A DNA stretch of 64,000 bases from Candidatus Poribacteria bacterium (GTDB lineage Bacteria > Poribacteria > WGA-4E > PCPOR2b). Numbering within the stretch: position 1 is the stretch's first letter; each line of letters begins with the position of its first letter. Location of the stretch: positions 1 to 64,000 of the forward strand of contig JAJDUM010000103.1 of NCBI GenBank assembly GCA_022826645.1, read 5' to 3'. The position numbers were made by a program, and so were the translations under genes. Below are positions 19,656 to 30,060 of the stretch, piece by piece. The notes under the pieces were generated by a model. The model was given only the letters and a program-made list of their open reading frames with translations, had not been told where the DNA came from and ran no database searches.

Positions 19656-20678
19656 ATGATTGTCTACATCCTGCATCGACTCCTTTCGATCGGACTATCG
19701 CTCTTTGGTGTCTCGCTGCTCGTCTTTTTCATGGTGCATCTGATCCCCGGTGATGCCGCGCTCGCAATTCTCGGTGAACGCGCCACGGAGGAAGCATTAA
19801 CGGAACTCCGTCGTGAAATGGGGTTAGATCAGCCGCTGTACAAGCAGTATGGGGTATTCCTGTGGGATTTAGCGCATTTAGACTTAGGACGCTCGTTTAA
19901 GACAAACCAGCCGGTTATTGACGAAATTCTCCGCAAATTTCCTGCGACAGTAGAACTGACACTTGCAGCGATGATTTTCTCGATCTTTTTCGGCATAACT
20001 GCCGGGATTATTGCTGCTGTCAACCGCGGGAAGTTTTGGGACTACACAACGATGTTCGGATCACTGGCAGGGATTTCCATGCCGATCTTCTGGCTTGGTT
20101 TGATGCTTATTTTACTGTTCGCTTACGCCCTACCGATTTTTCCTAGTTCACAGCGACTCGATGCCGTATTAGATCTCGACATTCAGCACCGCACCCATTT
20201 TTACCTCATTGATACTCTGCTTGCTGGCGACTTCAATGCTTTCCGAAATGCAATCATGCATCTCATCCTTCCTGCGATAACACTGGGCACGATACCGTTA
20301 GCCATTATCGCTCGCATGACACGGTCTAGCCTCTTAGAAATCCTCAACCAACAGTACATCGTCACCGCCTATGCAAAGGGGCTGCCCAAACGGATCGTAA
20401 TTCTCAAACATGCCCTAAAAAACAGTATCATTCCCGTTTTGACGGTAATAGGGCTTGAATTTGGCTATCTGATGGGCGGCGCGATCTTAACAGAACATAT
20501 TTTCTCTTGGCCTGGGTTGGGATCGTGGTTGCGTGCTGCTGTTGAAGCCCGTGATATCCGTCCCGTACAGGGTGGTGTTCTCTTTGTTGCCACAGTTTTT
20601 ATGATGGTGAACCTCATTGTCGATCTGCTCTACGCGTATTTTGATCCGCGTATCCGGATTGGAGGAGAGACGACATGA
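19656..20678 (+). CDS. ABC transporter permease, DppB type
   Basis: A 340-residue inner-membrane permease of the BPD_transp_1 family with six predicted helices. The N-terminal IVYILHRLLSIGLSLFGVS and FFMVHLIPGD are hallmarks of DppB/OppB. The EAA loop region is YIVTAYAKGLPKRIVILKHA, which contacts the ATPase. It overlaps the next permease gene by 4 bp (ATGA). Confidence 0.93.
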   Translation: MIVYILHRLLSIGLSLFGVSLLVFFMVHLIPGDAALAILGERATEEALTELRREMGLDQPLYKQYGVFLWDLAHLDLGRSFKTNQPVIDEILRKFPATVELTLAAMIFSIFFGITAGIIAAVNRGKFWDYTTMFGSLAGISMPIFWLGLMLILLFAYALPIFPSSQRLDAVLDLDIQHRTHFYLIDTLLAGDFNAFRNAIMHLILPAITLGTIPLAIIARMTRSSLLEILNQQYIVTAYAKGLPKRIVILKHALKNSIIPVLTVIGLEFGYLMGGAILTEHIFSWPGLGSWLRAAVEARDIRPVQGGVLFVATVFMMVNLIVDLLYAYFDPRIRIGGETT

Positions 20679-21517
20679 GAGAGCATCGTAGTCAATTCTA
20701 TCGGGAGCTGCTGCGTCAGAAATCAGCGTTGATTGGCGCATCGATCTTAATTTTCTTCATTGTCATCGCAATCTTTGCCCCGATAGTTGCAACACATGAT
20801 CCTCGGAACGTAGACGTCACAACACGTCTCCAAGGATGGTCTCAGGAGCATTACTTCGGGACCGATAAGGTTGGAAGGGATATTTTCAGCCGCATTGTTT
20901 ACGGTTCACGAATCTCGATCAAGGTCGGGTTGGTTGCGATGACATTTTCGATCTCAATTGGCGCACTGTTGGGTGTTCTCGCTGGCTATTACGGGGGCTG
21001 GATCGACAACACCATCATGCGAATAATGGATATGATGCTTGCCATGCCGAGTATCCTGTTAGCAATGGTCATTGTTACGATCTTGGGGCAGAGCCTGACA
21101 AATGCGATTATTGCTGTTTCGATTGTTTACATCCCACAATACGCGAGAATCTTGCGCGCATCTGTACTCACTATCCGTGAGCAGGATTATGTAACCGCTG
21201 CCCACGCCATCGGCATGAGCGACTTTCGCATTTTGACCCGTGCGATTTTGCCCAACTGTCTTGCCCCCCTGATTGTGCAGGCAACGCTCGGCATGGGCGC
21301 AGCTATTTTGGATGCCGCCGGTCTCAGCTTTCTCGGGCTCGGCGCTGAAATCGGCGAACCGGAGTGGGGCGCGATGCTCAACGAGAATCGAGCACTGATT
21401 CGTCGTGCACCGTGGACTGTTATGACGCCGGGGATTGCGATTTTTCTGATTGTTTTAGGATTCAATCTGTTAGGGGATGCCTTGAGGGATGTGTTGGATC
21501 CACAGGTGAAGACGTAA
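20675..21517 (+). CDS. ABC transporter permease, DppC type
   Basis: A 280-residue permease of the DppC/OppC type. FIVIAIFAPIVATHDP and HYFGTDKVGRDIFSRIVYGS form the typical N-terminal region, and the EAA loop is DYVTAAHAIGMSDFRILTRA. The protein pairs with the DppB-type permease. No ATP-binding subunit (DppD/DppF type) follows; the next gene is an enolase-superfamily enzyme, so the ATPase must be supplied from elsewhere in the genome. Confidence 0.93.
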   Translation: MREHRSQFYRELLRQKSALIGASILIFFIVIAIFAPIVATHDPRNVDVTTRLQGWSQEHYFGTDKVGRDIFSRIVYGSRISIKVGLVAMTFSISIGALLGVLAGYYGGWIDNTIMRIMDMMLAMPSILLAMVIVTILGQSLTNAIIAVSIVYIPQYARILRASVLTIREQDYVTAAHAIGMSDFRILTRAILPNCLAPLIVQATLGMGAAILDAAGLSFLGLGAEIGEPEWGAMLNENRALIRRAPWTVMTPGIAIFLIVLGFNLLGDALRDVLDPQVKT

Positions 21518-21596
21518 CGCAGCGTGAAGTGTAATTGGCTCATTCGTTGATTCGTTTATTTTTATACACAGACTCGTTATATAAGGAAGGTCAAAC

Positions 21597-22730
21597 ATGA
21601 AAATTACAGATGTGAAACCTTTGCCGGTATGGGGAGGTGCTAGGAATTTCTTCTTTGTCAAGGTCGAAACCGACGAAGGTATCTATGGAATTGGCGAAGG
21701 CGGGATCACTTGGCGGGAACTCGCAGCCACAGAATGTGTTAACCATCTGAAGTCCGTTTTAATTGGTGAAGATCCGCGTCGCATCGAACACCTATGGCAG
21801 GTGATGTTCCGTGGCGGTTTTTTCCCCGCCGGGCGGATTGCGTGCTCTGCGATCAGTGCTATCGATATTGCGCTCTGGGATATTCGTGGGAAAGCGTTGG
21901 GGGTTCCCGTCTATGATCTGCTTGGTGGACTTGTCCGTCAGAAGGCCGTGTGCTATCCTCACGCTGGTGGCAACTCCGCCGAACAACTCGCTGAACACGC
22001 ACGGTCACTCGTGGAAGATGGATGGAAATTTGTGCGTTGGGGTGTCCCTCAGCAGGGGGATGTTCTCGATCCATCGTGGGCGGTGCGGGAGACCATTAAG
22101 CAGTGCGAAGCGGTTCGGGACGCCGTTGGGGAGGAGATTGAACTCCTGATTGACGTTCATACGCGGCTTGACCCGCCCCATGTGATACCGCTCTGTCGTG
22201 CTTTGGAGGGTTATCGGCCCTATTTCATCGAAGATCCGTTGCGGTCTGAAAATATGTCCACGTACCATCAGCTGGCACGCCACGTTGCCGTGCCGTTGGC
22301 GGTGGGAGAGCAGTACGCCACAAAGTGGGAATTCCGTGAATTGGTTGAACAGGAACTAATGCAGTATGCGCGGATAGATCTCTGTATTGTTGGTGGGATT
22401 ACTGAAGCGAAGAAAATCGCCGGTTGGTGCGAGGCTCACTACATTGATCTGGCACCCCACAATCCGCTCGGTCCTGTTTCGACAGCGGCGTGTCTCCATC
22501 TGGATCTCGCTTCAACGAACTTCGGCGTACAAGAGCTGCCAAGCAAACCGGGGACAACGCTGCCCGATGTCTTTCCAGTACAGTTAGAGTGGGAGGACGG
22601 CTATCTACTGCCGCCGACAGCCCCGGGATTGGGGATTGACTTTGATGAGGAAGCGGCACTGGCTAATCCGTACCGCGAAGTTGAGGCACCGCAGTTGCGT
22701 AGGCCCGATGGAGCGTTTACGAATTGGTAG
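21597..22730 (+). CDS. mandelate racemase/muconate lactonizing enzyme family protein
   Basis: A 377-residue enolase-superfamily enzyme resembling galactonate-type sugar acid dehydratases. The N-terminal capping domain (1-115) is followed by a TIM barrel with metal-ligand positions in LLIDVHTRLD (Asp, with the neighbouring His), YFIEDPL (Glu) and AVGEQYA (Glu). The general-base His lies in DLAPHNPLGPVS. These support an acid-sugar dehydratase, but substrate cannot be fixed. AAGGAAGG precedes the ATG. It follows the ABC importer on the same strand by 80 bp, suggesting it processes the imported solute. Confidence 0.9.
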   Translation: MKITDVKPLPVWGGARNFFFVKVETDEGIYGIGEGGITWRELAATECVNHLKSVLIGEDPRRIEHLWQVMFRGGFFPAGRIACSAISAIDIALWDIRGKALGVPVYDLLGGLVRQKAVCYPHAGGNSAEQLAEHARSLVEDGWKFVRWGVPQQGDVLDPSWAVRETIKQCEAVRDAVGEEIELLIDVHTRLDPPHVIPLCRALEGYRPYFIEDPLRSENMSTYHQLARHVAVPLAVGEQYATKWEFRELVEQELMQYARIDLCIVGGITEAKKIAGWCEAHYIDLAPHNPLGPVSTAACLHLDLASTNFGVQELPSKPGTTLPDVFPVQLEWEDGYLLPPTAPGLGIDFDEEAALANPYREVEAPQLRRPDGAFTNW

Positions 22731-22824
22731 ATCCGAGAGTAGAGATAAAGCAACCACAAAGGTTGCCAATACAAAAGCTTGTCTTCTTTGCACGAATGCT
22801 TAACACGAGCGTTGACATTTACCT

Positions 22825-23676
22825 TCACTGTGTTTTTATTCGTGCCCAAGTTGCTGTTAGTTTGTCGGTTGGTTCAACTGCCAGCTTACCTGTGATGTTT
22901 TGGAGAAGCTCGTCTCGGCTTAACGGTCTGTCGTAAATACGAAGGATAGCGATTGAGCCGTTGAAGTTTCGATCCCTGTCATGTGAAGTAAATATTGAAA
23001 GCCACATAGGCTCCTCAGGGTCATAATCCTGATCCATATCAACCATCCCCACTTTTTCACCATCTTGGTAGGTTTCAACTGACTTCTGATCGGTGAAAAC
23101 AAATGCAAGCCAGTGCCACTCCTTTTTCTTAATGTCAATGCCGAGATCTTCCGGGATTAGCCATTTTCCTTTGTTATTAGCTCTACCCTTAAATCTTGCG
23201 ATGAGTTCACCGGTATCCGGCCCGTTGAGAGAAACTTGAAACTGTTGCAATTCCCTGTCACGCGCTCTAAATCCAAGGACTTGGGAGGCAACAACGAGAT
23301 CGGGCCATTTGGGACCGTTGCGTCTGATGAGAACCTCCATCGTCCAATCTTCAAGTTCCATTTTGGGTACTAGATCCGGTGGCCCACCAAAAGTCTCAGA
23401 CTTTCGCGTGGCGGTATACCATTTGGCGTCCTCATTGATACCGAGTGCGGGTATTCTGATTTTTCCCTCTTCAAATTCAGGCACTTCATCGTTGGCGGGC
23501 ATTTTTCCACCAGCTATGCCGAGATTTCTCCAAACTATCTCCCGCCTATTCTGTTCGCTGGCATCAAGATGGATTATCGCACCAGGGAGAACCTTCTTTT
23601 GTGCTGTGGCATCAAAACAGATAAGTCCTAACACGAAAACCACATTGAAAACTGCAATTCTGTTTATACACTTCAT
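22825..23676 (-). CDS. secreted LamG-domain protein 1
   Basis: A 283-residue exported protein. A signal peptide covers about residues 1-25 (RIAVFNVVFVLGLICFDATA). The rest is a concanavalin-A-like/LamG fold with motifs such as WHWLAFVFTDQKSVETYQDG and FNGSIAILRIYDRPLSRDEL. It is the most divergent of the four LamG proteins here and ends in the shared tail LAVEPTDKLTATWARIKTQ. The ATG at 23676 is preferred over an in-frame ATG 20 codons earlier because it begins the signal peptide and an AAGGGA lies upstream. No enzymatic residues are recognised; likely binds or covers surface glycans. Confidence 0.82.
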   Translation of the reverse strand: MKCINRIAVFNVVFVLGLICFDATAQKKVLPGAIIHLDASEQNRREIVWRNLGIAGGKMPANDEVPEFEEGKIRIPALGINEDAKWYTATRKSETFGGPPDLVPKMELEDWTMEVLIRRNGPKWPDLVVASQVLGFRARDRELQQFQVSLNGPDTGELIARFKGRANNKGKWLIPEDLGIDIKKKEWHWLAFVFTDQKSVETYQDGEKVGMVDMDQDYDPEEPMWLSIFTSHDRDRNFNGSIAILRIYDRPLSRDELLQNITGKLAVEPTDKLTATWARIKTQ

Positions 23677-23708
23677 TTGGAAATATCCCTTTGGCTGACG
23701 AATGGGGA

Positions 23709-24548
23709 TTAATGGTTCTTTTTGATCGTAGCCCATGAGGTGGCAAGCTTCCCTGATGGAGAAACTGCAAAGATTGCTATATCAAGTCCTTTTCCAAGCT
23801 GCTTTACATCAGCATCGCTCAATGCAACATTGAAGATCGCAAGTTCGTCGATTTGACTCTTACTGAACGAATCAAATCGCGCTGGCAATAATGCACCGAT
23901 GTACATCGGCTGTCCCAGTGGGGGTGCCAATCCCATCTTCTTTACCCCATCGCCGTGTTCAACAGGTTTCGACTCGCCATCAATATAGAGCGTTGGTGCC
24001 CTCTCTCCATCTTTGGCAACAACAACATAGTGGTGCCACTGATCGTCCTTTATACCGCTGGCACCCTGAAATCCATTTTCATACCAGAAATAAAACATAT
24101 TGTCAAAAACTTTGTGGAGCGCAATGCCGTATCCCGCGCCGTGCCACTGCCATTCTCCACCCCTATGTATAATAAAATAAGGTGCAACATCAGTCGCTTG
24201 CAGCCGTGGGGGTCGTTTCACCCAAACTGAAATAGAGATGACCTCCTCAAGGTTTAAGGCTACATCGTCCGGCACTTCCAAGTAGTTTTTTCTGGTATCA
24301 CTAAACTCTATTGCCCTACCGAACTTCCCGTCAACCAGCGCGGGTTTATTTATCAATTTCGCGTTATGACCGTTGCCCGTAATATCTGGGATCCCCTTCA
24401 TACCAGCCTCTTCGAATGTCCATATTGCAATAGCTTTCTCCAGAAATTTGCGCCCTGTCAATTGTGCATCACTTACTAGCGTGAACTCCAAATTCAAAAT
24501 GAGTAAACTAAGACTCATTGCAATAAATTTTACTGCAGAGATTCTCAT
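23709..24548 (-). CDS. secreted LamG-domain protein 2
   Basis: A 279-residue exported protein with a signal peptide (SLSLLILNLEFTLVSDA) and a LamG/concanavalin-like domain (about 45-255). It contains ISVWVKRPPRLQAT, DDQWHHYVVVAKDG, YIDGE and IDELAIFNVALSDADV, and ends in IFAVSPSGKLATSWATIKK. It is clearly a recent relative of the next protein, with near-identical blocks throughout. The ATG at 24548 starts the signal peptide; the ribosome-binding site AAGGA is upstream. It is 32 bp upstream of LamG protein 1 on the same strand, in one operon-like block. Confidence 0.88.
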   Translation of the reverse strand: MRISAVKFIAMSLSLLILNLEFTLVSDAQLTGRKFLEKAIAIWTFEEAGMKGIPDITGNGHNAKLINKPALVDGKFGRAIEFSDTRKNYLEVPDDVALNLEEVISISVWVKRPPRLQATDVAPYFIIHRGGEWQWHGAGYGIALHKVFDNMFYFWYENGFQGASGIKDDQWHHYVVVAKDGERAPTLYIDGESKPVEHGDGVKKMGLAPPLGQPMYIGALLPARFDSFSKSQIDELAIFNVALSDADVKQLGKGLDIAIFAVSPSGKLATSWATIKKNH

Positions 24549-24574
24549 GATTCGATAGTTCCTTCTTCGCCAAC

Positions 24575-25429
24575 TCATCGAGTCTGTTTCAGTATTGCCC
24601 ACGTTGTGGCAAGTTTGCCCGATGGAGAAACCGCGAAAATTGAGTTATCAACCCCTTTCCCAAGCCGTTCAACATCAGCTTGACTCAACGCAACGTTGAA
24701 AATGGCAAGATCATCTATGGCGTTATTAGACCACGAATCAAATCGCTCCGGGAACACCGCTCCAATATGTAGTGCGCGTCCCGGTGAGGGTTCTAATGCA
24801 ATCACTCGCTGACCATCGCGATGTTCGACCTCTTTTAATTCCCCATCAATATACATGGACGGATCTCTCTCCCTATCTTTAGCCACGACAACGTAGTGAT
24901 GCCACTGATCATCCTTTATCCCGTTTACTCCTTGGAATCCACCTTGATACCAGAAATAGAACATGTTGTTAAAAACCTTATGCAGCGCTATTCCAAAAGT
25001 GGGGCGTCCGTGCTGCCATTCTCCACCTTTTTCAAGAATAAAATAGGGAGCGATATCGGTCGCTTGCAAGCGAGGTGGCCTTTTCACCCATACTGAAATC
25101 GAAATGGCTTCATCAAGATCGAAATCCTCATGGTGTGGCACTTCCAAGTAATTTTTTCTTCCGGAATTAAACTCTACCGCTTTACCGAATTGCCCATCAA
25201 CCAGTGCAGGCTTATTCACCATCACCGCGTCATGACCGTTTCCAGAAACGTCCTCGACAAAAGGATCGTTATCCTTATTTCTTTCCGTCCCATCAAAAGT
25301 CCATATTGCAACCGCCGCTTCTAGAAGCTCAGGTCCTGTCAATCGGGCATGGCTTGTACCTGCCGACACCCAGTTTATGATAATTAAGCCGAGCACAATC
25401 CTGCCCAACCCCGTGATGAAGGTCTTCAT
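24575..25429 (-). CDS. secreted LamG-domain protein 3
   Basis: A 284-residue exported LamG protein, first of the tandem minus-strand set. Signal peptide is about residues 1-28 (IVLGLIIINWVSAGTSHA). The domain shows SVWVKRPPRLQATDIAPYF, KDDQWHHYVVVAKDR and IDDLAIFNVALSQADVERL, with the tail IFAVSPSGKLATTWAILK. Its similarity to LamG protein 2 indicates tandem duplication. AAGGAGG lies upstream of the ATG. No catalytic site is recognised. Confidence 0.9.
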   Translation of the reverse strand: MKTFITGLGRIVLGLIIINWVSAGTSHARLTGPELLEAAVAIWTFDGTERNKDNDPFVEDVSGNGHDAVMVNKPALVDGQFGKAVEFNSGRKNYLEVPHHEDFDLDEAISISVWVKRPPRLQATDIAPYFILEKGGEWQHGRPTFGIALHKVFNNMFYFWYQGGFQGVNGIKDDQWHHYVVVAKDRERDPSMYIDGELKEVEHRDGQRVIALEPSPGRALHIGAVFPERFDSWSNNAIDDLAIFNVALSQADVERLGKGVDNSIFAVSPSGKLATTWAILKQTR

Positions 25430-25562
25430 TCACATTGCCTCCTTGCCATCATTTTTCTGGTCCCCTGGAAAGTATACACCCACATATCAATGCGAGTTTG
25501 ATTGCCTTTACAGTGTATCCAGAAAAGGATTGGATGTCAACGCAAAAATGAATTCTTTGCGC

Positions 25563-25592
25563 TTGACTTGTTTAGCAGAAAAATGTTAATAT
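25563..25592 (+). promoter_or_regulatory. candidate promoter for LamG protein 4
   Basis: TTGACT at 25563-25568 is followed after 16-18 bp by overlapping -10-like hexamers (GTTAAT, TTAATA, TAATAT). It lies in the 373-bp divergent gap 25430-25802, leaving a leader of about 200 nt. No other element was recognised in the gap. Confidence 0.35.
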
Positions 25593-25802
25593 GTTTATGT
25601 TATCAAAACTGACTTTCCACAGGCTCTCCGAATCTTACAACGTTACGTAAAAATTGGATGCAGTTGTAGATCGGTTTTCTAACTTGACTACAACCTCTGC
25701 GCGACTGAAGTAGACTCAGATAGGAGCTTGGTCTACCGTCGTGGAATTTCTTGTAACAGCTCATCAGAGTCCAAAACCCATATTATAAGGAAGGATATTA
25801 CG

Positions 25803-26603
25803 ATGAAAAAAGGGCGATTAATCTCCATAGCCTTGGTTCTTGTATTTGTGTTCTCACTGACACACGTGGTTTTTGCTGCGCCAAAGAACTTCGCACTCAA
25901 ATTTGATGCAAAAAAGGATAGTGGTGAAAAAGGCACACGGGTCATTGTTGACCATAGCGAAGAGCTGAACCTCGCAGAGAAGTTAACGATCGAAGCGTGG
26001 ATTTACGCCACTGCCTTAGATTCCGGCGGCGGAAGAATGATGATTACTGGAAAAGCAGATACATGGATGCACGCTCTGCTCAACGATGGGGGTGCTTATC
26101 AAGGAGCGGTCAATGCTGCTCAGTGGAGTTGGGAAGGATCCGGCAAGGTAAGTTTAGAGAGATGGACACATGTTGCGCTGTCCTTTGATGGTCGTGCCTA
26201 CCTTCTCCACGTTGACGGTAAGTTGAAAGATGAAATTGAAGATCCAGGGAAGATTAACACCTCATTGTCTGATGTTTATATTGGTTGGCTTCCTCAGTGG
26301 AATGAAGCGTTTACTGGGCTAATCGATGAGGTCCGGATATCTAATATTCCCAGATACCCTGCGGCCAACTTTCCAAGACCGACGACCGAGTTTGAAGAAC
26401 GGGATCGCAATACCGTTCTCCTGATGCACTTTAATGAGGGCCAAGGTGGAGAAGCTAAGGATGCATCCGCTTTTGAGCATCACGGCTTAATTGATACTGC
26501 GACATGGGAAGAGGTGGCTGATGCCCCCTTTAAACCGTTAGCGGTCGAGCCGGGCGTAGGTAAGTTATCAACTACATGGGGCAAACTCAAACGTAAGTAT
26601 TAG
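25803..26603 (+). CDS. secreted LamG-domain protein 4
   Basis: A 266-residue exported protein diverging from the minus-strand LamG cluster. Signal peptide about 1-24 (ALVLVFVFSLTHVVFAAP). It is a LamG/laminin-G-like domain: LTIEAWIYATALD, ERWTHVALSFDGRAYLLHVD, and LIDEVRISNIPRYP. It is distant from the other three in the domain but keeps the tail VEPGVGKLSTTWGKLKRKY. The ATG with AAGGA upstream and signal peptide fixes the start; an earlier in-frame start is not needed. Confidence 0.88.
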   Translation: MKKGRLISIALVLVFVFSLTHVVFAAPKNFALKFDAKKDSGEKGTRVIVDHSEELNLAEKLTIEAWIYATALDSGGGRMMITGKADTWMHALLNDGGAYQGAVNAAQWSWEGSGKVSLERWTHVALSFDGRAYLLHVDGKLKDEIEDPGKINTSLSDVYIGWLPQWNEAFTGLIDEVRISNIPRYPAANFPRPTTEFEERDRNTVLLMHFNEGQGGEAKDASAFEHHGLIDTATWEEVADAPFKPLAVEPGVGKLSTTWGKLKRKY

Positions 26604-26655
26604 ACCGCCCCCTGGGTTGAGTAAACTTCTGTAACATAGGATTTCCCGATTATTT

Positions 26656-26716
26656 GCCTCCTGATTTCCCGATTGAATTAGCATATTTTCTCTCGGTGTC
26701 AGGAGGCTTTTCTTTT
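26656..26716 (+). terminator. terminator after LamG protein 4
   Basis: A 9-bp perfect inverted repeat (GCCTCCTGA at 26656-26664 and TCAGGAGGC at 26699-26707) flanks a 34-nt loop and is followed by TTTTCTTTTT. The loop is large, but the T tract is good. Confidence 0.55.
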
Positions 26717-26785
26717 TCGGTTTAAGCAGGATCCACCACCAAAATTATATCTGGATGTGGATAATCCAAAATTAAGAGGTGTCGT

Positions 26786-27670
26786 ATGATTTTAATGAGT
26801 CCGTCCGTGCGCTTGGGAAAAACATCGGAGGATCGAGCCGCCTTCCTACAAAAGGTCAAGTTAATGGAAGTGAAAACTGTGACCACGAATACGCCAGCTG
26901 ATTGGAGTGATGCGGACGTTGAAGAAGCCAAGCGGTTCCTCGATGACCATGGTATCCGGGTCGGCGAGTTTAGCGGGCATCAGGGAGGATTTGGCTCGGC
27001 GGATCCGGCTGAATACCGAGACGCCATTGAAGGACATCGGCGCCAATTGCGCCATGCGCACATCATAGGAGCACATTGCATCGCCTGCGCGGTACTCATT
27101 GGCAGGATCTGGATTGATGAGATGCCAAAGACCTTCGCAGAGCGGGGTGGAACCATTCCGGCTATGTGGTCTGAGGAGACTTGGAAACGATGTATTGGTG
27201 CAGTCGAGGAACTGATGCCTCATGCGGAAGAATTTGAAACGGACGTAGCGATACATCCTCATATCATCACTCCGGTCTACTCTGTCGAGCGATATCAGGA
27301 ACTCTTTGATGCAGTCTCGTCTCCACGCCTGAAAGCACTCTTCGATCCTGTGAATATGACAGGACCCCATATGTTTCTCAGAATGACAGACTTTACAAAT
27401 GAGATTTTCGATGGAATTGGGGATAAAATTGTCACGATGCACGCAAAAGATGCTACAATGTGGTCAGCGAAACCGATTAGCATTATTAGCCGTGTGGATG
27501 AAGCGGTTCCGGGCACCGGTATGATGGATTATGCAACAATACTTCGACGGTTGGATGCCTTAGACAATGATGTTCCAGTACATGTAGAGCACTTCCCTGA
27601 GTTGGAGACAATTGCGGGTCAGCAGTATATCCGTCATGTTGGACGGGAAATTGGTGTAACTATAGGTTAG
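26786..27670 (+). CDS. sugar phosphate isomerase/epimerase (xylose isomerase-like TIM barrel)
   Basis: A 294-residue AP-endonuclease-2/xylose-isomerase-like TIM barrel. Typical features are DHGIRVGEFSGHQGG, AVLIGRIW, VAIHPHIITPVYSVERYQEL, ALFDPVNMTGP, KIVTMHAKDATM, and VPVHVEHFPELE, with His/Asp/Glu residues suited to metal binding. Such enzymes isomerise or epimerise ketoses and are common in carbohydrate catabolism. AGAGGTG precedes the ATG. It begins a plus-strand set with a sulfatase-like gene, a ComA-like gene and an NHL-repeat gene. Confidence 0.82.
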   Translation: MILMSPSVRLGKTSEDRAAFLQKVKLMEVKTVTTNTPADWSDADVEEAKRFLDDHGIRVGEFSGHQGGFGSADPAEYRDAIEGHRRQLRHAHIIGAHCIACAVLIGRIWIDEMPKTFAERGGTIPAMWSEETWKRCIGAVEELMPHAEEFETDVAIHPHIITPVYSVERYQELFDAVSSPRLKALFDPVNMTGPHMFLRMTDFTNEIFDGIGDKIVTMHAKDATMWSAKPISIISRVDEAVPGTGMMDYATILRRLDALDNDVPVHVEHFPELETIAGQQYIRHVGREIGVTIG

Positions 27671-27777
27671 TAAGTGGCTTTCTTCAGTTCCTGACGATTT
27701 AGCCAATCTATTGATGGATATCAACCTATAAACGACCAGCCCTACATCAGTGACTGGTGAATGGACAAGGAGAGGTT

Positions 27778-29196
27778 ATGGCTGAAGAAGTGGCAAATGC
27801 AAGTCAACCGTGGAACGTTGTGGTTGTGGTTTCGGATACGCTTAGGACAGCGTATCTGGGTGCCTATGGGAATAAATGGATTCATACACCCAATCTCAAT
27901 AAGTTCGCTCAAGATAGCGTACGATTTACAAATGCACATCCAGAATGCTTGCCAACGATTCCGACGCGTCGTACCTTGCATAGTGGCCGCCGGGCGTTCC
28001 CATTTCGGGATTACCGTCCTGTACCTTGGGATAATGTCTATATCCCGGGGTGGCAGCCCTTATCATCGGAGGAAAGCACAATAGCGGAGGCACTTGTCCG
28101 CCAAGGTTATCACACCGGTTTCTTCGCAGATGTACCCCACTACTTTGTACCGGGGATGAACTTTACGCGCGGATTTTTGCAGTGGGAGTTCATCCGTGGT
28201 CAGGCGGAGGACCGGTATAATGCGATTGCACACGCGGATGAGACGTTGTTATCGCGCTACCGTGGTGGTGCGGATCGGATTCGGGCGCATTTAGTGAACG
28301 TGCAACCGGAGCAGCCAGAAGAGACTTGGCCCGCAGCGCGCACGTTCCGGGCTGCGATAAAATTTGTCGAGCAGAATTACAATAATAATCCCTTTTATCT
28401 CTACGTCGATAGCTTCACACCGCACGAGACTTGGGAAGCTCCGATTCACTATTACGACCTTTACGGGAATCGAGAAGACCGTGAACCGATTTATCTCTCC
28501 GCACCTTACGGACCAATAGATCGTAATCCTGAAGTCGAAGAACGTTTGCCGAGTATTCGAGCGAATTATGCTGGTCTGGTGACGATGGTGGACACATGGT
28601 TTGGAAAGTTGATAAATACCATCGACAGGCTGGGGTTAAAACAGAACACGCTCGTGATATTCCTGAGCGATCACGGAACCAACTTCGGTGAAAACCCGGA
28701 CCGTGTTACAGGAAAACCGGCGGATTTCATGTATCCGGGCACAATGGATATCCCGATGATGCTGCGGCATCCAGACGGGGTGCGTGCTGGAAGCACACGT
28801 GACGAATTCGTTTACAGCTTGGACGTACCAGCGACCGTCATTGCTGCCGCTGGGGTTGAACCGATCGGTAGAATAGAAGGGCAGAGCCTGCTCCCACTGG
28901 TAGAAGGCGGCATCGGATTTGAGGCACGAGATTATCTGACCTGTCGCTACGGTAACTCTGTGTGGTACAAAGATTCAAAGAATTGGTTCTTCAGTGGTGT
29001 TGATTCCCAGAATTCACGCCTTTTTGACCTGGAGGAAGATCCAATGTGTCAGCATAATATTGCAGCGAGTGCGGAAGATCGGTGCGCTCTTGCGCGAGAA
29101 CGCATATTGGCGGATGCGGGTGGTGAATTACAACGCTATGAACGGCAGGAAAAGACAGATGCGCTGGGCAGACCTGAGTTTGCTGAAGGAAGATAA
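27778..29196 (+). CDS. sulfatase-family hydrolase with Thr at the nucleophile position
   Basis: A 472-residue alkaline-phosphatase-superfamily hydrolase. The metal site starts in VVVVSDTLRTAYLGAYGN and further ligands are in FLSDHGTNFGEN. In normal sulfatases C/S-x-P-S-R is oxidised to formylglycine; here the best-aligned motif is TIPTRRTLHSG, giving Thr60 at the nucleophile position, with Cys57 three residues before as a poorer candidate. This may point to a formylglycine-independent phosphodiesterase or phosphonate-type hydrolase rather than a sulfatase. No signal peptide, so cytoplasmic. Start chosen at the ATG with AAGGAG upstream; a GTG seven codons before is the alternative. Confidence 0.85.
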   Translation: MAEEVANASQPWNVVVVVSDTLRTAYLGAYGNKWIHTPNLNKFAQDSVRFTNAHPECLPTIPTRRTLHSGRRAFPFRDYRPVPWDNVYIPGWQPLSSEESTIAEALVRQGYHTGFFADVPHYFVPGMNFTRGFLQWEFIRGQAEDRYNAIAHADETLLSRYRGGADRIRAHLVNVQPEQPEETWPAARTFRAAIKFVEQNYNNNPFYLYVDSFTPHETWEAPIHYYDLYGNREDREPIYLSAPYGPIDRNPEVEERLPSIRANYAGLVTMVDTWFGKLINTIDRLGLKQNTLVIFLSDHGTNFGENPDRVTGKPADFMYPGTMDIPMMLRHPDGVRAGSTRDEFVYSLDVPATVIAAAGVEPIGRIEGQSLLPLVEGGIGFEARDYLTCRYGNSVWYKDSKNWFFSGVDSQNSRLFDLEEDPMCQHNIAASAEDRCALARERILADAGGELQRYERQEKTDALGRPEFAEGR

Positions 29197-29268
29197 CTAT
29201 CTATCATCGTCTCATATATCTACAGAGCTTATAACCGAGCTTGTAGATGCAATGGAGTTATACGCCAA

Positions 29269-30060
29269 ATGAACCCACATTTCTTTGAAGGGATCGACGG
29301 AATCGAACGACAGCGGAAACCGAGAGACCGCGGGCTGACAATGGTTATCGATTGGGGTATTGGGATACGTGAACAGGAGGATCTGATCGAGACTGGAGCA
29401 GACCATTTCGATTTTTCAAAGATCGCTGTCGGTATCTCCCGTTTGTTGTCAAATGATGTATTGGAAGCAAAGTTGAAAAAGTATCGTCAACATCAGATTG
29501 AGCCATTTGCAGGAGGTATGTTTCTCGAATACGCAGAGGTATCCGGAAAAGCAGAGCTTTATTTTCCTGCGATCGTTCGGGCAGGCTATCGTTGGGTTGA
29601 GGTATCGGATAACCTCGGAGCGGTGTCGGTTGCATGGAAACGGCAGATGATTCGTCAAGCAGTCAAGGACCATGGCCTACAAGTTATGGGTGAGGTTGGT
29701 AAGAAGGAGGGATTGGCAAGCGAGATCCCTTTCCCTGACGATGCGCAGGGCTGCCTCGACGCTGGTGCAGCGCTGGTACTCTTAGAAGCCGCTGAGTTGG
29801 TCAGTGAAGATGTTGACACAGCGAAGGCGGTTGAAGAAGTTGTAGACCTCGTTGGTCTGGAGAAAGTCATGTTTGAATTACCCGGTCCCTGGATTGCTGG
29901 GGTAACTGCACATGGCATCCATCACCTTCGCCGCCAGCTCATAGATCGATATGGTAGAGAAGTGAATTTAGGTAACGTCGCGCCAGCCGATCTCGTGTCA
30001 TTGGAAGCGTATCGCCGAGGGTTAGGGGTCAATGCCGGCGAGGTTAAGGGTGATGTCTGA
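29269..30060 (+). CDS. phosphosulfolactate synthase (ComA)-like protein
   Basis: A 263-residue TIM-barrel protein resembling ComA (PF02679). Matching family features are RKPRDRGLTMVIDWGIG near the N-terminus, HFDFSKIAVG, GGMFLEYAEVSG, WVEVSDNLGAV, VMGEVGKKEGLA and the C-terminal GREVNLGNVAPADLVSLEAY. Known ComA condenses phosphoenolpyruvate with sulfite to make phosphosulfolactate for coenzyme M. Here it sits after a sulfatase-like gene and no other coenzyme M genes were seen, so it may handle sulfonates or another compound. The ATG has a GGAG 11 bp upstream. Confidence 0.75.
   Translation: MNPHFFEGIDGIERQRKPRDRGLTMVIDWGIGIREQEDLIETGADHFDFSKIAVGISRLLSNDVLEAKLKKYRQHQIEPFAGGMFLEYAEVSGKAELYFPAIVRAGYRWVEVSDNLGAVSVAWKRQMIRQAVKDHGLQVMGEVGKKEGLASEIPFPDDAQGCLDAGAALVLLEAAELVSEDVDTAKAVEEVVDLVGLEKVMFELPGPWIAGVTAHGIHHLRRQLIDRYGREVNLGNVAPADLVSLEAYRRGLGVNAGEVKGDV

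Follow-up and report, generated by a model that had tools for sequence, protein, structure and literature searches.

Why would proteins whose bodies have drifted apart keep one and the same short C-terminal end? The question is raised by a contig of a Candidatus Poribacteria bacterium (Poribacteria; WGA-4E; PCPOR2b; assembly GCA_022826645.1, contig JAJDUM010000103.1), of which we analysed positions 1 to 64,000 of the forward strand, a stretch of 64,000 nucleotides termed here the window. Between positions 22,825 and 26,603, the region under study, four genes, the fourth on the plus strand and the others on the minus strand, code for proteins that each contain LamG (PF13385, E 2e-10 to 8e-20). 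These proteins had been predicted to share a C-terminal tail, and all their open reading frames and tails were confirmed (Table 1). The tail comprises roughly 20 residues, with the C-terminal consensus [FL][AS]V[ES]Px(G/D)KL(A/T)TxW(G/A)x(I/L)Kxx(x). The motif first proposed, V-x-P...K-L-x-T-x-W, describes the four tails save at one position: protein 1 reads EPTDKLTATWARIK, with Ala, not Thr, two residues before the Trp. The extra residue announced for protein 4 is there. Judging from the sequence, the likelier start of protein 1 is the Met at residue 21 (~23676), with MKCINRIAVFNVVFVLGLICFDATAQ as signal peptide; that of protein 2 is Met19 (~24548).

Table 1. Positions in the window of the four LamG genes and of the segments coding for their C-terminal tails.
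Feature	Position	Strand	Description
LamG protein 1	22825..23736	-	303 aa as called; PF13385 E 2.4e-10
Protein 1 C-terminal tail, LAVEPTDKLTATWARIKTQ	22828..22890	-	tail profile E 4.5e-8
LamG protein 2	23709..24602	-	PF13385 E 2.9e-15
Protein 2 C-terminal tail, FAVSPSGKLATSWATIKKNH	23715..23774	-	tail profile E 3.7e-9
LamG protein 3	24575..25429	-	284 aa, N-terminal signal peptide; PF13385 E 8.6e-15; AlphaFold2 pLDDT 83.7
Protein 3 C-terminal tail, FAVSPSGKLATTWAILKQTR	24578..24643	-	tail profile E 3.7e-10
LamG protein 4	25803..26603	+	266 aa from MKKGRL, signal peptide; PF13385 E 7.9e-20
Protein 4 C-terminal tail, LAVEPGVGKLSTTWGKLKRKY	26532..26597	+	one extra residue; tail profile E 5.2e-9

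The tail is more than a fortuitous resemblance. A profile of it, run with hmmsearch against 118 related loci, gave 168 matches at E<1e-3, and none at E<1 in the reversed open reading frames of the same loci; by this measure the matches exceed chance. Genome-wide, the profile matches the four window tails at E 3.7e-10 to 4.5e-8. Position, too, is strict: almost all matches with E<0.1 sit at most eight residues from the stop, and 70 of the 93 tail proteins of the genome set end 7-8 residues after the Trp. Relative to this residue, V(-10) is kept in 96% of the 93 proteins, K(-5) in 88%, G(+1) in 91% and K(+4) in 99%, while the Trp itself is found in 267 of 269 terminal copies. That the tail is kept while bodies diverge, as had been claimed, is borne out by 78 LamG proteins, with a pairwise identity of 52% in the tail against 27% in the body. 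The tail is their best-conserved 15-residue stretch, and its V, W and K are the only invariant columns.

A simple account would be homology, the tail being the ordinary C-terminal strand of one duplicated LamG family. In the window, three of the four genes do lie side by side on the same strand, and two of the products, proteins 2 and 3, are closely related paralogues. The rest of the genome says otherwise. It codes for at least 93 tail proteins (genome counts rest on searches and retrieved regions), which fall into 12 body groups without mutual BLAST similarity at 1e-3 (40, 32, 8, 4 and 2 members, and seven singletons), and 61 of them lie outside the LamG group. Pfam recognizes in their bodies PD40, LamG, kelch, 3-keto-disaccharide hydrolase(-like), CBM9(-like) and DUF3108-like domains, or no family at all. 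A single LamG duplication family is ruled out by these figures. The tail is not a part of the LamG jelly roll either, since propellers and other folds bear it too. AlphaFold2 models protein 3 with the LamG fold complete ahead of the tail (last strand at 237-244, helix at 250-256); the tail is predicted as a disordered linker (268-271) and a helix (273-282), a block with pLDDT 54-61, that is, a detached, low-confidence C-terminal helix outside the fold. No Ig-like beta-sandwich is seen at the C-terminus of this model, and no hydrophobic transmembrane span can be read in the tail sequences. We give homology alone practically no credit. In a fold search, protein 3 resembled many carbohydrate-binding proteins in their ConA/LamG-like domains (11-20% identity), and domains of toxins and sialidases were among the matches; we take these matches as similarity of predicted folds only, without functional claim.

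The original prediction, that the tail is an export, anchoring, sorting or docking tag, was to be abandoned if the tail proved limited to one LamG family or part of its fold. Both refutations fail, and the proposal gains support. Signal-peptide-like N-termini are carried by 84 of the 93 tail proteins, against 74 of 234 control open reading frames. The tail ends all 32 intact LamG proteins found, the single tail-less exception being a broken fragment of 109 aa, and approximately 45 of the 50 PD40-type open reading frames collected terminate in it or in a variant. A C-terminal sorting signal is generally expected to recur, as one short motif, at the ends of many exported proteins of a genome that are not homologous to one another, and the tail does so. 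At the level of sequence, these data demonstrate both a conserved C-terminal tag independent of the body and its association with signal peptides.

Extending the search to relatives, as had been suggested, retrieved the tail in 84 of 84 Poribacteria genomes, from 21 genera, with 17 to more than 104 copies per genome, showing by profile matching that its presence is phylum-wide. The few matches in MAGs labelled Pseudomonadota, Planctomycetota or Deltaproteobacteria are probably binning errors, though this is not proven, since they lie on few small contigs and 148 of 149 genomes from the phylum of the Planctomycetota-labelled MAG that had tail matches lack the tail, the remaining one having a single weak match. 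A co-occurring partner gene, also looked for at the instigation of the original prediction, did not appear: no neighbour recurs consistently at the 118 loci, and the commonest ones (an oxidoreductase-like family at 17 loci, FG-GAP-like and PhyH-like genes at 14 each, names read from sequence) look generic. Nor has the tail a name. It matches no Pfam or NCBIfam model, TIGR04183 and the other known C-terminal signal models included, and only one PDB sequence, at chance level (E 0.13); its motif strings are not described in the literature searched. The original prediction knew of no family with this tail, and the tail is undescribed in any database entry or paper that we found.

The same genome offers a lead. 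About 75 of its other proteins bear a C-terminal domain (CTD, ~85 residues) of the type IX secretion system (T9SS), matching TIGR04183 / Por_Secre_tail. Directly ahead of this domain, 13 of 51 CTD segments, about a quarter, display a tail-like module; nine of the 13 score at least 5 bits, where shuffles would yield 0.05. When BLAST aligns a PD40 protein carrying a CTD with tail-bearing ones, the alignments extend through the tail to a few residues from the ends of the latter. Alignments and profile scores together establish the tail as homologous to the segment just before the CTD, with one consistent difference: the position of the Trp is occupied by Leu or Phe in 16 of 16 pre-CTD copies.

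It might be argued from this homology that the tail is no more than a functionless linker left over from lost CTDs, and one recent-looking truncation, ending FTTLGAVKRGALSED, speaks in favour of this. A leftover would hardly be the most conserved 15-residue stretch of LamG proteins, kept in 84 of 84 genomes and endowed with a residue of its own, the Trp absent from pre-CTD linkers. As far as conservation can tell, this view is already contradicted, and we deem it scarcely tenable. More subtly, a T9SS-type sortase might cut tail+CTD proteins behind the tail-like segment; the tail would then correspond to the mature end of such proteins, tail proteins being born 'already cut', with that end itself functional, for example as a site of surface linkage. 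The module does end at the CTD border, where PorU cleaves in known systems (PMC11969387, PMC5562754), and the AlphaFold2 model of a tail+CTD protein places it within the disordered linker before the CTD, in a region of low confidence (mean pLDDT 46.3, the model being usable for the CTD only). Against this, terminal and pre-CTD ends would not be alike, because the Trp, invariant in the former, is missing in the latter; moreover, some three quarters of CTD proteins have no such module, and the export of tail proteins would be left unexplained. We consider this improbable.

What, then, could read the tail? T9SS-type CTDs had been seen in Poribacteria without any secretion genes being found (Kamke et al., 2014; PMC3909097), and we found no literature on a poribacterial T9SS beyond that work. 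Homologues of the three components that we searched for are present in 13 of 13 Poribacteria genomes: a SprA homologue (a partial, low-scoring SprA_N match, seven being above cut-off), the PorV family (14-26 matches per genome) and C25 (PorU-like) proteins, with a C25 gene near a PorV gene, by coordinates, in at least nine of the 13. Every Poribacteria genome examined has both the tail and the T9SS-like genes; therefore, their co-occurrence cannot separate the two.

We propose that the tail is a body-independent C-terminal sorting signal of Poribacteria, probably read by a T9SS-like surface pathway and replacing the CTD, a proposal whose chances we see as evenly balanced. An N-terminal signal peptide would send tail proteins through Sec, however much their beta-rich bodies differ (LamG, which is lectin-like, propellers of the PD40/WD40-like and kelch types, and others). 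A receptor encoded elsewhere would then recognize the final ~20 residues, in which V-x-P-x-G forms a flexible stretch and a short amphipathic helix comes next, carrying the invariant Trp and Lys; the chain ends freely 3-4 residues later. The likeliest reader is the T9SS-like outer-membrane pathway, with SprA as translocon, PorV-family proteins as shuttles and a C25/PorU-like protein as sortase, and it would place the tail proteins on the cell surface. The tail would then be a minimal alternative to the ~85-residue CTD, while the tail-like segment ahead of a CTD, its Trp lost, may be a linker only. In a more specific form, which we advance as speculation, a second, minimal type IX signal would exist: a 20-residue, Trp-anchored helical tag, derived from or ancestral to the pre-CTD segment, replacing the beta-sandwich CTD; members of the expanded PorV family would read it, and the bacterial surface would thereby be coated with lectin and propeller proteins. 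Several facts stand against the proposal. The tail has neither a TIGR04183, Pfam or NCBIfam match nor the CTD motifs B, D and E; tail genes have no recurrent neighbour; and Porphyromonas gingivalis has its export signal within the final 22 CTD residues and not in the preceding linker (PMC4804311), the place where the tail-like module is found.

The tail may tentatively be seen, instead, as a tag for retention rather than export: after crossing by some route, the protein would dock, dockerin-like, on a scaffold shared by all, be it a barrel of the PorV family, a component of the cell wall or of an S-layer-like structure, or a partner protein. Body independence and strict C-terminal position suit such a role, as do bodies that are binding folds (lectin-like, propellers) and the 14-26 PorV-family matches per genome, so many possible receptors; a short, detached helix with invariant Trp and Lys, as modelled with low confidence, would fit a docking peptide. 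However, no dedicated partner gene adjoins the tail genes, and CTD-exported proteins, to which docking after export would still be useful, keep no intact tag because their pre-CTD homologue has lost the Trp. To return to the sorting signal that we favour, the tag itself is established from sequence, while its sorting role and its reading by a T9SS-like system, including any dependence of secretion on SprA and PorV, are inferred. The tail is probably a cell-surface address label; whether it serves export, anchoring or docking is not shown, in the absence of experiment or complex prediction.

If this is right, the consequences reach beyond one locus. An undescribed address label would be borne by about 100 proteins per genome in a whole uncultured, largely sponge-associated phylum. 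With SprA, PorV-family and PorU-like homologues in all 13 genomes tested, the matter that Kamke et al. (2014; PMC3909097) left unresolved would be reopened. Pairs of tail and CTD proteins would offer a natural experiment on the minimal size of a type IX signal. A single motif would also list the likely surface proteins of Poribacteria, and with them the lectin-like and propeller proteins, possible points of contact with the sponge host.

Several known systems resemble the tail in part. PEP-CTERM, GlyGly-CTERM and LPXTG are likewise short C-terminal tags on many unrelated exported proteins of one genome. These and similar signals comprise a transmembrane helix and a basic end, whereas the tail has no hydrophobic span. 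The peptides that target proteins to encapsulins and microcompartments are, like the tail, short, C-terminal and amphipathic, but they load cytosolic cargo, while tail proteins have signal peptides. The T9SS CTD (TIGR04183 / PF18962 Por_Secre_tail, a FlgD-like beta-sandwich) is, like the tail, C-terminal, independent of the body, present on Sec-exported proteins and in many copies per genome, and the tail module stands ahead of it in part of the CTD proteins of this genome. It differs in length (~70-85 residues against ~20), in its beta-sandwich and in its motifs, while the tail matches no model and has an invariant Trp. Known CTDs, long and short, contain motifs B (Gly, Tyr), D (GxY) and E (PMC11969387). 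The short ones of Prevotella intermedia (43-55 residues, three strands) keep all three motifs, and that genome, too, combines C-terminal signals of both lengths (PMC11969387). The tail does not qualify as one of them, being half as long, without GxY in its consensus or any of motifs B, D and E, and aligning with the region before the CTD, not with the CTD.

Four open reading frames (ORFs), each with a LamG domain, three on the minus strand and one on the plus strand, were confirmed where the original prediction had placed them in the window, which is contig C117 of a genome of 6.04 Mb in 127 contigs (G000). As foreseen, they share a C-terminal tail of about 20 residues, [FL][AS]V[ES]Px(G/D)KL(A/T)TxW(G/A)x(I/L)Kxx(x). 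The motif first proposed holds for the tails overall and fails at a single position of protein 1, where alanine stands for the threonine two residues before the tryptophan. The N-termini of all four proteins are hydrophobic and read like signal peptides. As called, the minus-strand ORFs overlap (window 24575-24602 and 23709-23736), the downstream ORF starting where the upstream gene encodes its tail; either an artefactual start call or translational coupling could account for this. Neighbouring genes (window 19656-30060) encode binding-protein-dependent ABC permeases, a mandelate-racemase-type enzyme, a TIM-barrel isomerase-like protein, a sulfatase and a homologue of ComA-type sulfolactate synthase, surroundings that suggest a sulfated sugar or sulfonate theme.

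Window LamG proteins with their tails, and T9SS-like genes elsewhere in the same genome (G000; C, contig; L, fetched locus)
Feature	Location	Strand	Remark
Protein 1	window 22825-23736	-	tail LAVEPTDKLTATWARIKTQ
Protein 2	window 23709-24602	-	tail FAVSPSGKLATSWATIKKNH
Protein 3	window 24575-25429	-	tail FAVSPSGKLATTWAILKQTR
Protein 4	window 25803-26603	+	tail LAVEPGVGKLSTTWGKLKRKY
SprA-like protein	L248:12037-18618 = G000:C24	-	partial SprA_N match; also in 12 relatives
C25 gene and nearby PorV-family gene	G000 C110:25046-26173 and C110:21006-21938		region C110:21006-28300 (L225)
CTD on C25 ORF	G000 C110:22088-22300		TIGR04183-type match

The tail extends far beyond these four proteins. The DNA pattern K-L-x-T-x-W occurs at 79 places in the genome, against 59 for a reversed control, with clear runs in arrays, and the ORFs read at the true places terminate in the tail. 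A profile of 23 columns, built from 34 tails, had 97 genomic matches at E<=10; in the fetched regions, matches with E <0.1 lay nearly all at the very C-terminus, and reversed sequences of those regions gave none at E <1. This genome-wide search of C-termini, proposed with the original prediction, collected 93 distinct tail proteins. Their bodies, compared after removal of the tail, form 12 groups without a BLAST link at 1e-3 (40, 32, 8, 4 and 2 members, and seven singletons). Pfam assigns them to PD40 propellers (40), LamG (32) and kelch (8), as well as to 3-keto-disaccharide hydrolase-like, CBM9-like and DUF3108-like bodies; three proteins have no Pfam family. That the tail belongs only to a LamG duplication family is ruled out, PD40, kelch and other bodies carrying it too.

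Within these families the tail is kept strictly. It is present in 32/32 intact LamG proteins of the genome, the sole LamG match without it being a broken fragment of 109 aa (C83:14734; L036:8550-8930). The 50 PD40-type ORFs gathered comprise about 45 with the tail, or a recognisable variant of it, at the end, two with a T9SS-type C-terminal domain (CTD) there, and three (TolB-like or similar) with neither. The variant SVSPLGLVPKRWGEIKSN was seen in the PD40 proteins of loci L252, L256 and L011, some copies having a further Pro/Gly-rich end. Counted from the Trp, conservation is 96% for V(-10), 74% for P(-8), 88% for K(-5), 80% for T(-2), 91% for G(+1) and 99% for both I/L/V(+3) and K(+4), and 70/93 tail proteins stop 7 or 8 residues past the Trp. 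By a rough, simple rule, 84/93 tail proteins have a signal peptide, against 74/234 other ORFs; of the nine that fail it, most seem to be truncated frames or internal starts.

Tail and body were also compared: an alignment of 78 LamG tail proteins drawn from many genomes averages 52% pairwise identity across the tail and 27% across the body, and its only invariant columns, V267, W277 and K281, all fall within the tail. In an AlphaFold2 model of protein 3 built from this alignment (mean pLDDT 83.7), the LamG jelly roll is well predicted; after it come residues 268-271 at pLDDT <50, then a short helix spanning 273-282 (block means 54-61). Because the tail is placed beyond the jelly roll, it is, on this model, outside the LamG fold, and its being a piece of that known fold is ruled out. 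Judging from spacing, one face of the helix would bear Leu, Trp and Ile/Leu.

Public named genomes matching the tail are almost all Candidatus Poribacteria. It was found in 39/39 close relatives and in 84/84 genomes of the phylum (21 genera, 10 families), with 17 to >104 copies per genome at E<=0.001 among the matches listed; counts in relatives are at least these. Outside Poribacteria, a single other phylum was compared, that of a Planctomycetota-labelled genome with a match: 148/149 genomes had no tail, and the remaining one a single weak match. Tails also occur on few small contigs of MAGs labelled Pseudomonadota, Planctomycetota and Deltaproteobacteria (L097, L119, L147), probably Poribacteria contigs wrongly binned. 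The tail has no match among NCBIfam or Pfam models, in keeping with the initial statement that no family with it was known; PDB sequences gave only a chance-level match, and the motif strings were not found in the literature searched.

A relation to another C-terminal element came to light. About 75 proteins of the genome end in a TIGR04183-type CTD, and 13/51 of the segments upstream (about a quarter of CTD proteins) hold a tail-like module directly before it, in fixed register, as in AVEPKGKLLTSLGLVKQTRLLQ-NYPNPFNPETW and SVEPQSKRFTTLGDIKRTSLMQ-NFPNPFNPETW. Nine such modules score >=5 bits with the tail profile, against 0.05 on average for shuffled segments. BLAST alignments between one CTD-bearing PD40 protein and tail-bearing ones run unbroken through the tail (RSVEPQSKRFTTLGDIKR versus SVSPTGKKFTMWGWIKQ) to a few residues from the end of the tail proteins, and the CTD starts directly after. 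With the Trp position left open, terminal copies have Trp in 267/269 cases and pre-CTD copies Leu or Phe in 16/16. The former count is biased upward, since queries containing Trp had retrieved those loci; for most pre-CTD loci the CTD itself served as the query. Of the two terminal exceptions, one (L058, ending FTTLGAVKRGALSED) looks like a CTD protein after CTD loss. As the alignments cross the tail, the register is fixed and the Trp divides the two sets, we infer from sequence that a single module exists in two versions, tail and pre-CTD segment, the Trp belonging to the terminal one.

CTDs of this type had been seen in Poribacteria without the structural genes of the system (Kamke et al., 2014; PMC3909097). 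By contrast with that report of no Por secretion genes, one SprA-like translocon protein of ~2,190 aa, with a partial SprA_N match, is present per genome in 13/13 Poribacteria. PorV-family barrels also occur in 13/13, with 14-26 matches each, a large number, as do C25 (gingipain/PorU-type) proteins; the latter, of ~2,100 aa, have a CTD at the end where checked. Compared by coordinates, a C25 gene lies near a PorV-family gene in at least 9/13 genomes. In Porphyromonas gingivalis, PorU and PorV belong to one complex (PMC5562754).

For a short C-terminal motif kept across a whole phylum on exported but unrelated bodies, the best reading is a sorting or attachment signal, in line with the export, anchoring, sorting or docking role first suggested, its machinery being unproven. 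Whether it feeds a T9SS-like surface route in place of the CTD, a reading favoured because the module borders the CTD, keeps its Trp only when no CTD follows and coexists with SprA, PorV and C25 homologues, is to us an evenly balanced inference, this machinery also being unproven. Against it, motifs B, D and E, known from both long and short CTDs (PMC11969387), are absent from the tail, and the export signal of P. gingivalis occupies the distal end of the CTD and not the linker (PMC4804311). The main rival, a docking or retention tag, is possible, if distinctly less probable. A co-occurring partner gene, suggested at the outset as a check, was sought among the neighbours of tail genes and no linked one was found; the tail would therefore be read by a factor encoded elsewhere, acting in trans. 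Since motifs B, D and E are missing, the P. gingivalis signal lies at the far CTD end and no partner is linked, we do not class the tail among T9SS CTDs; it acts in the manner of a C-terminal sorting signal, with machinery as yet unproven.
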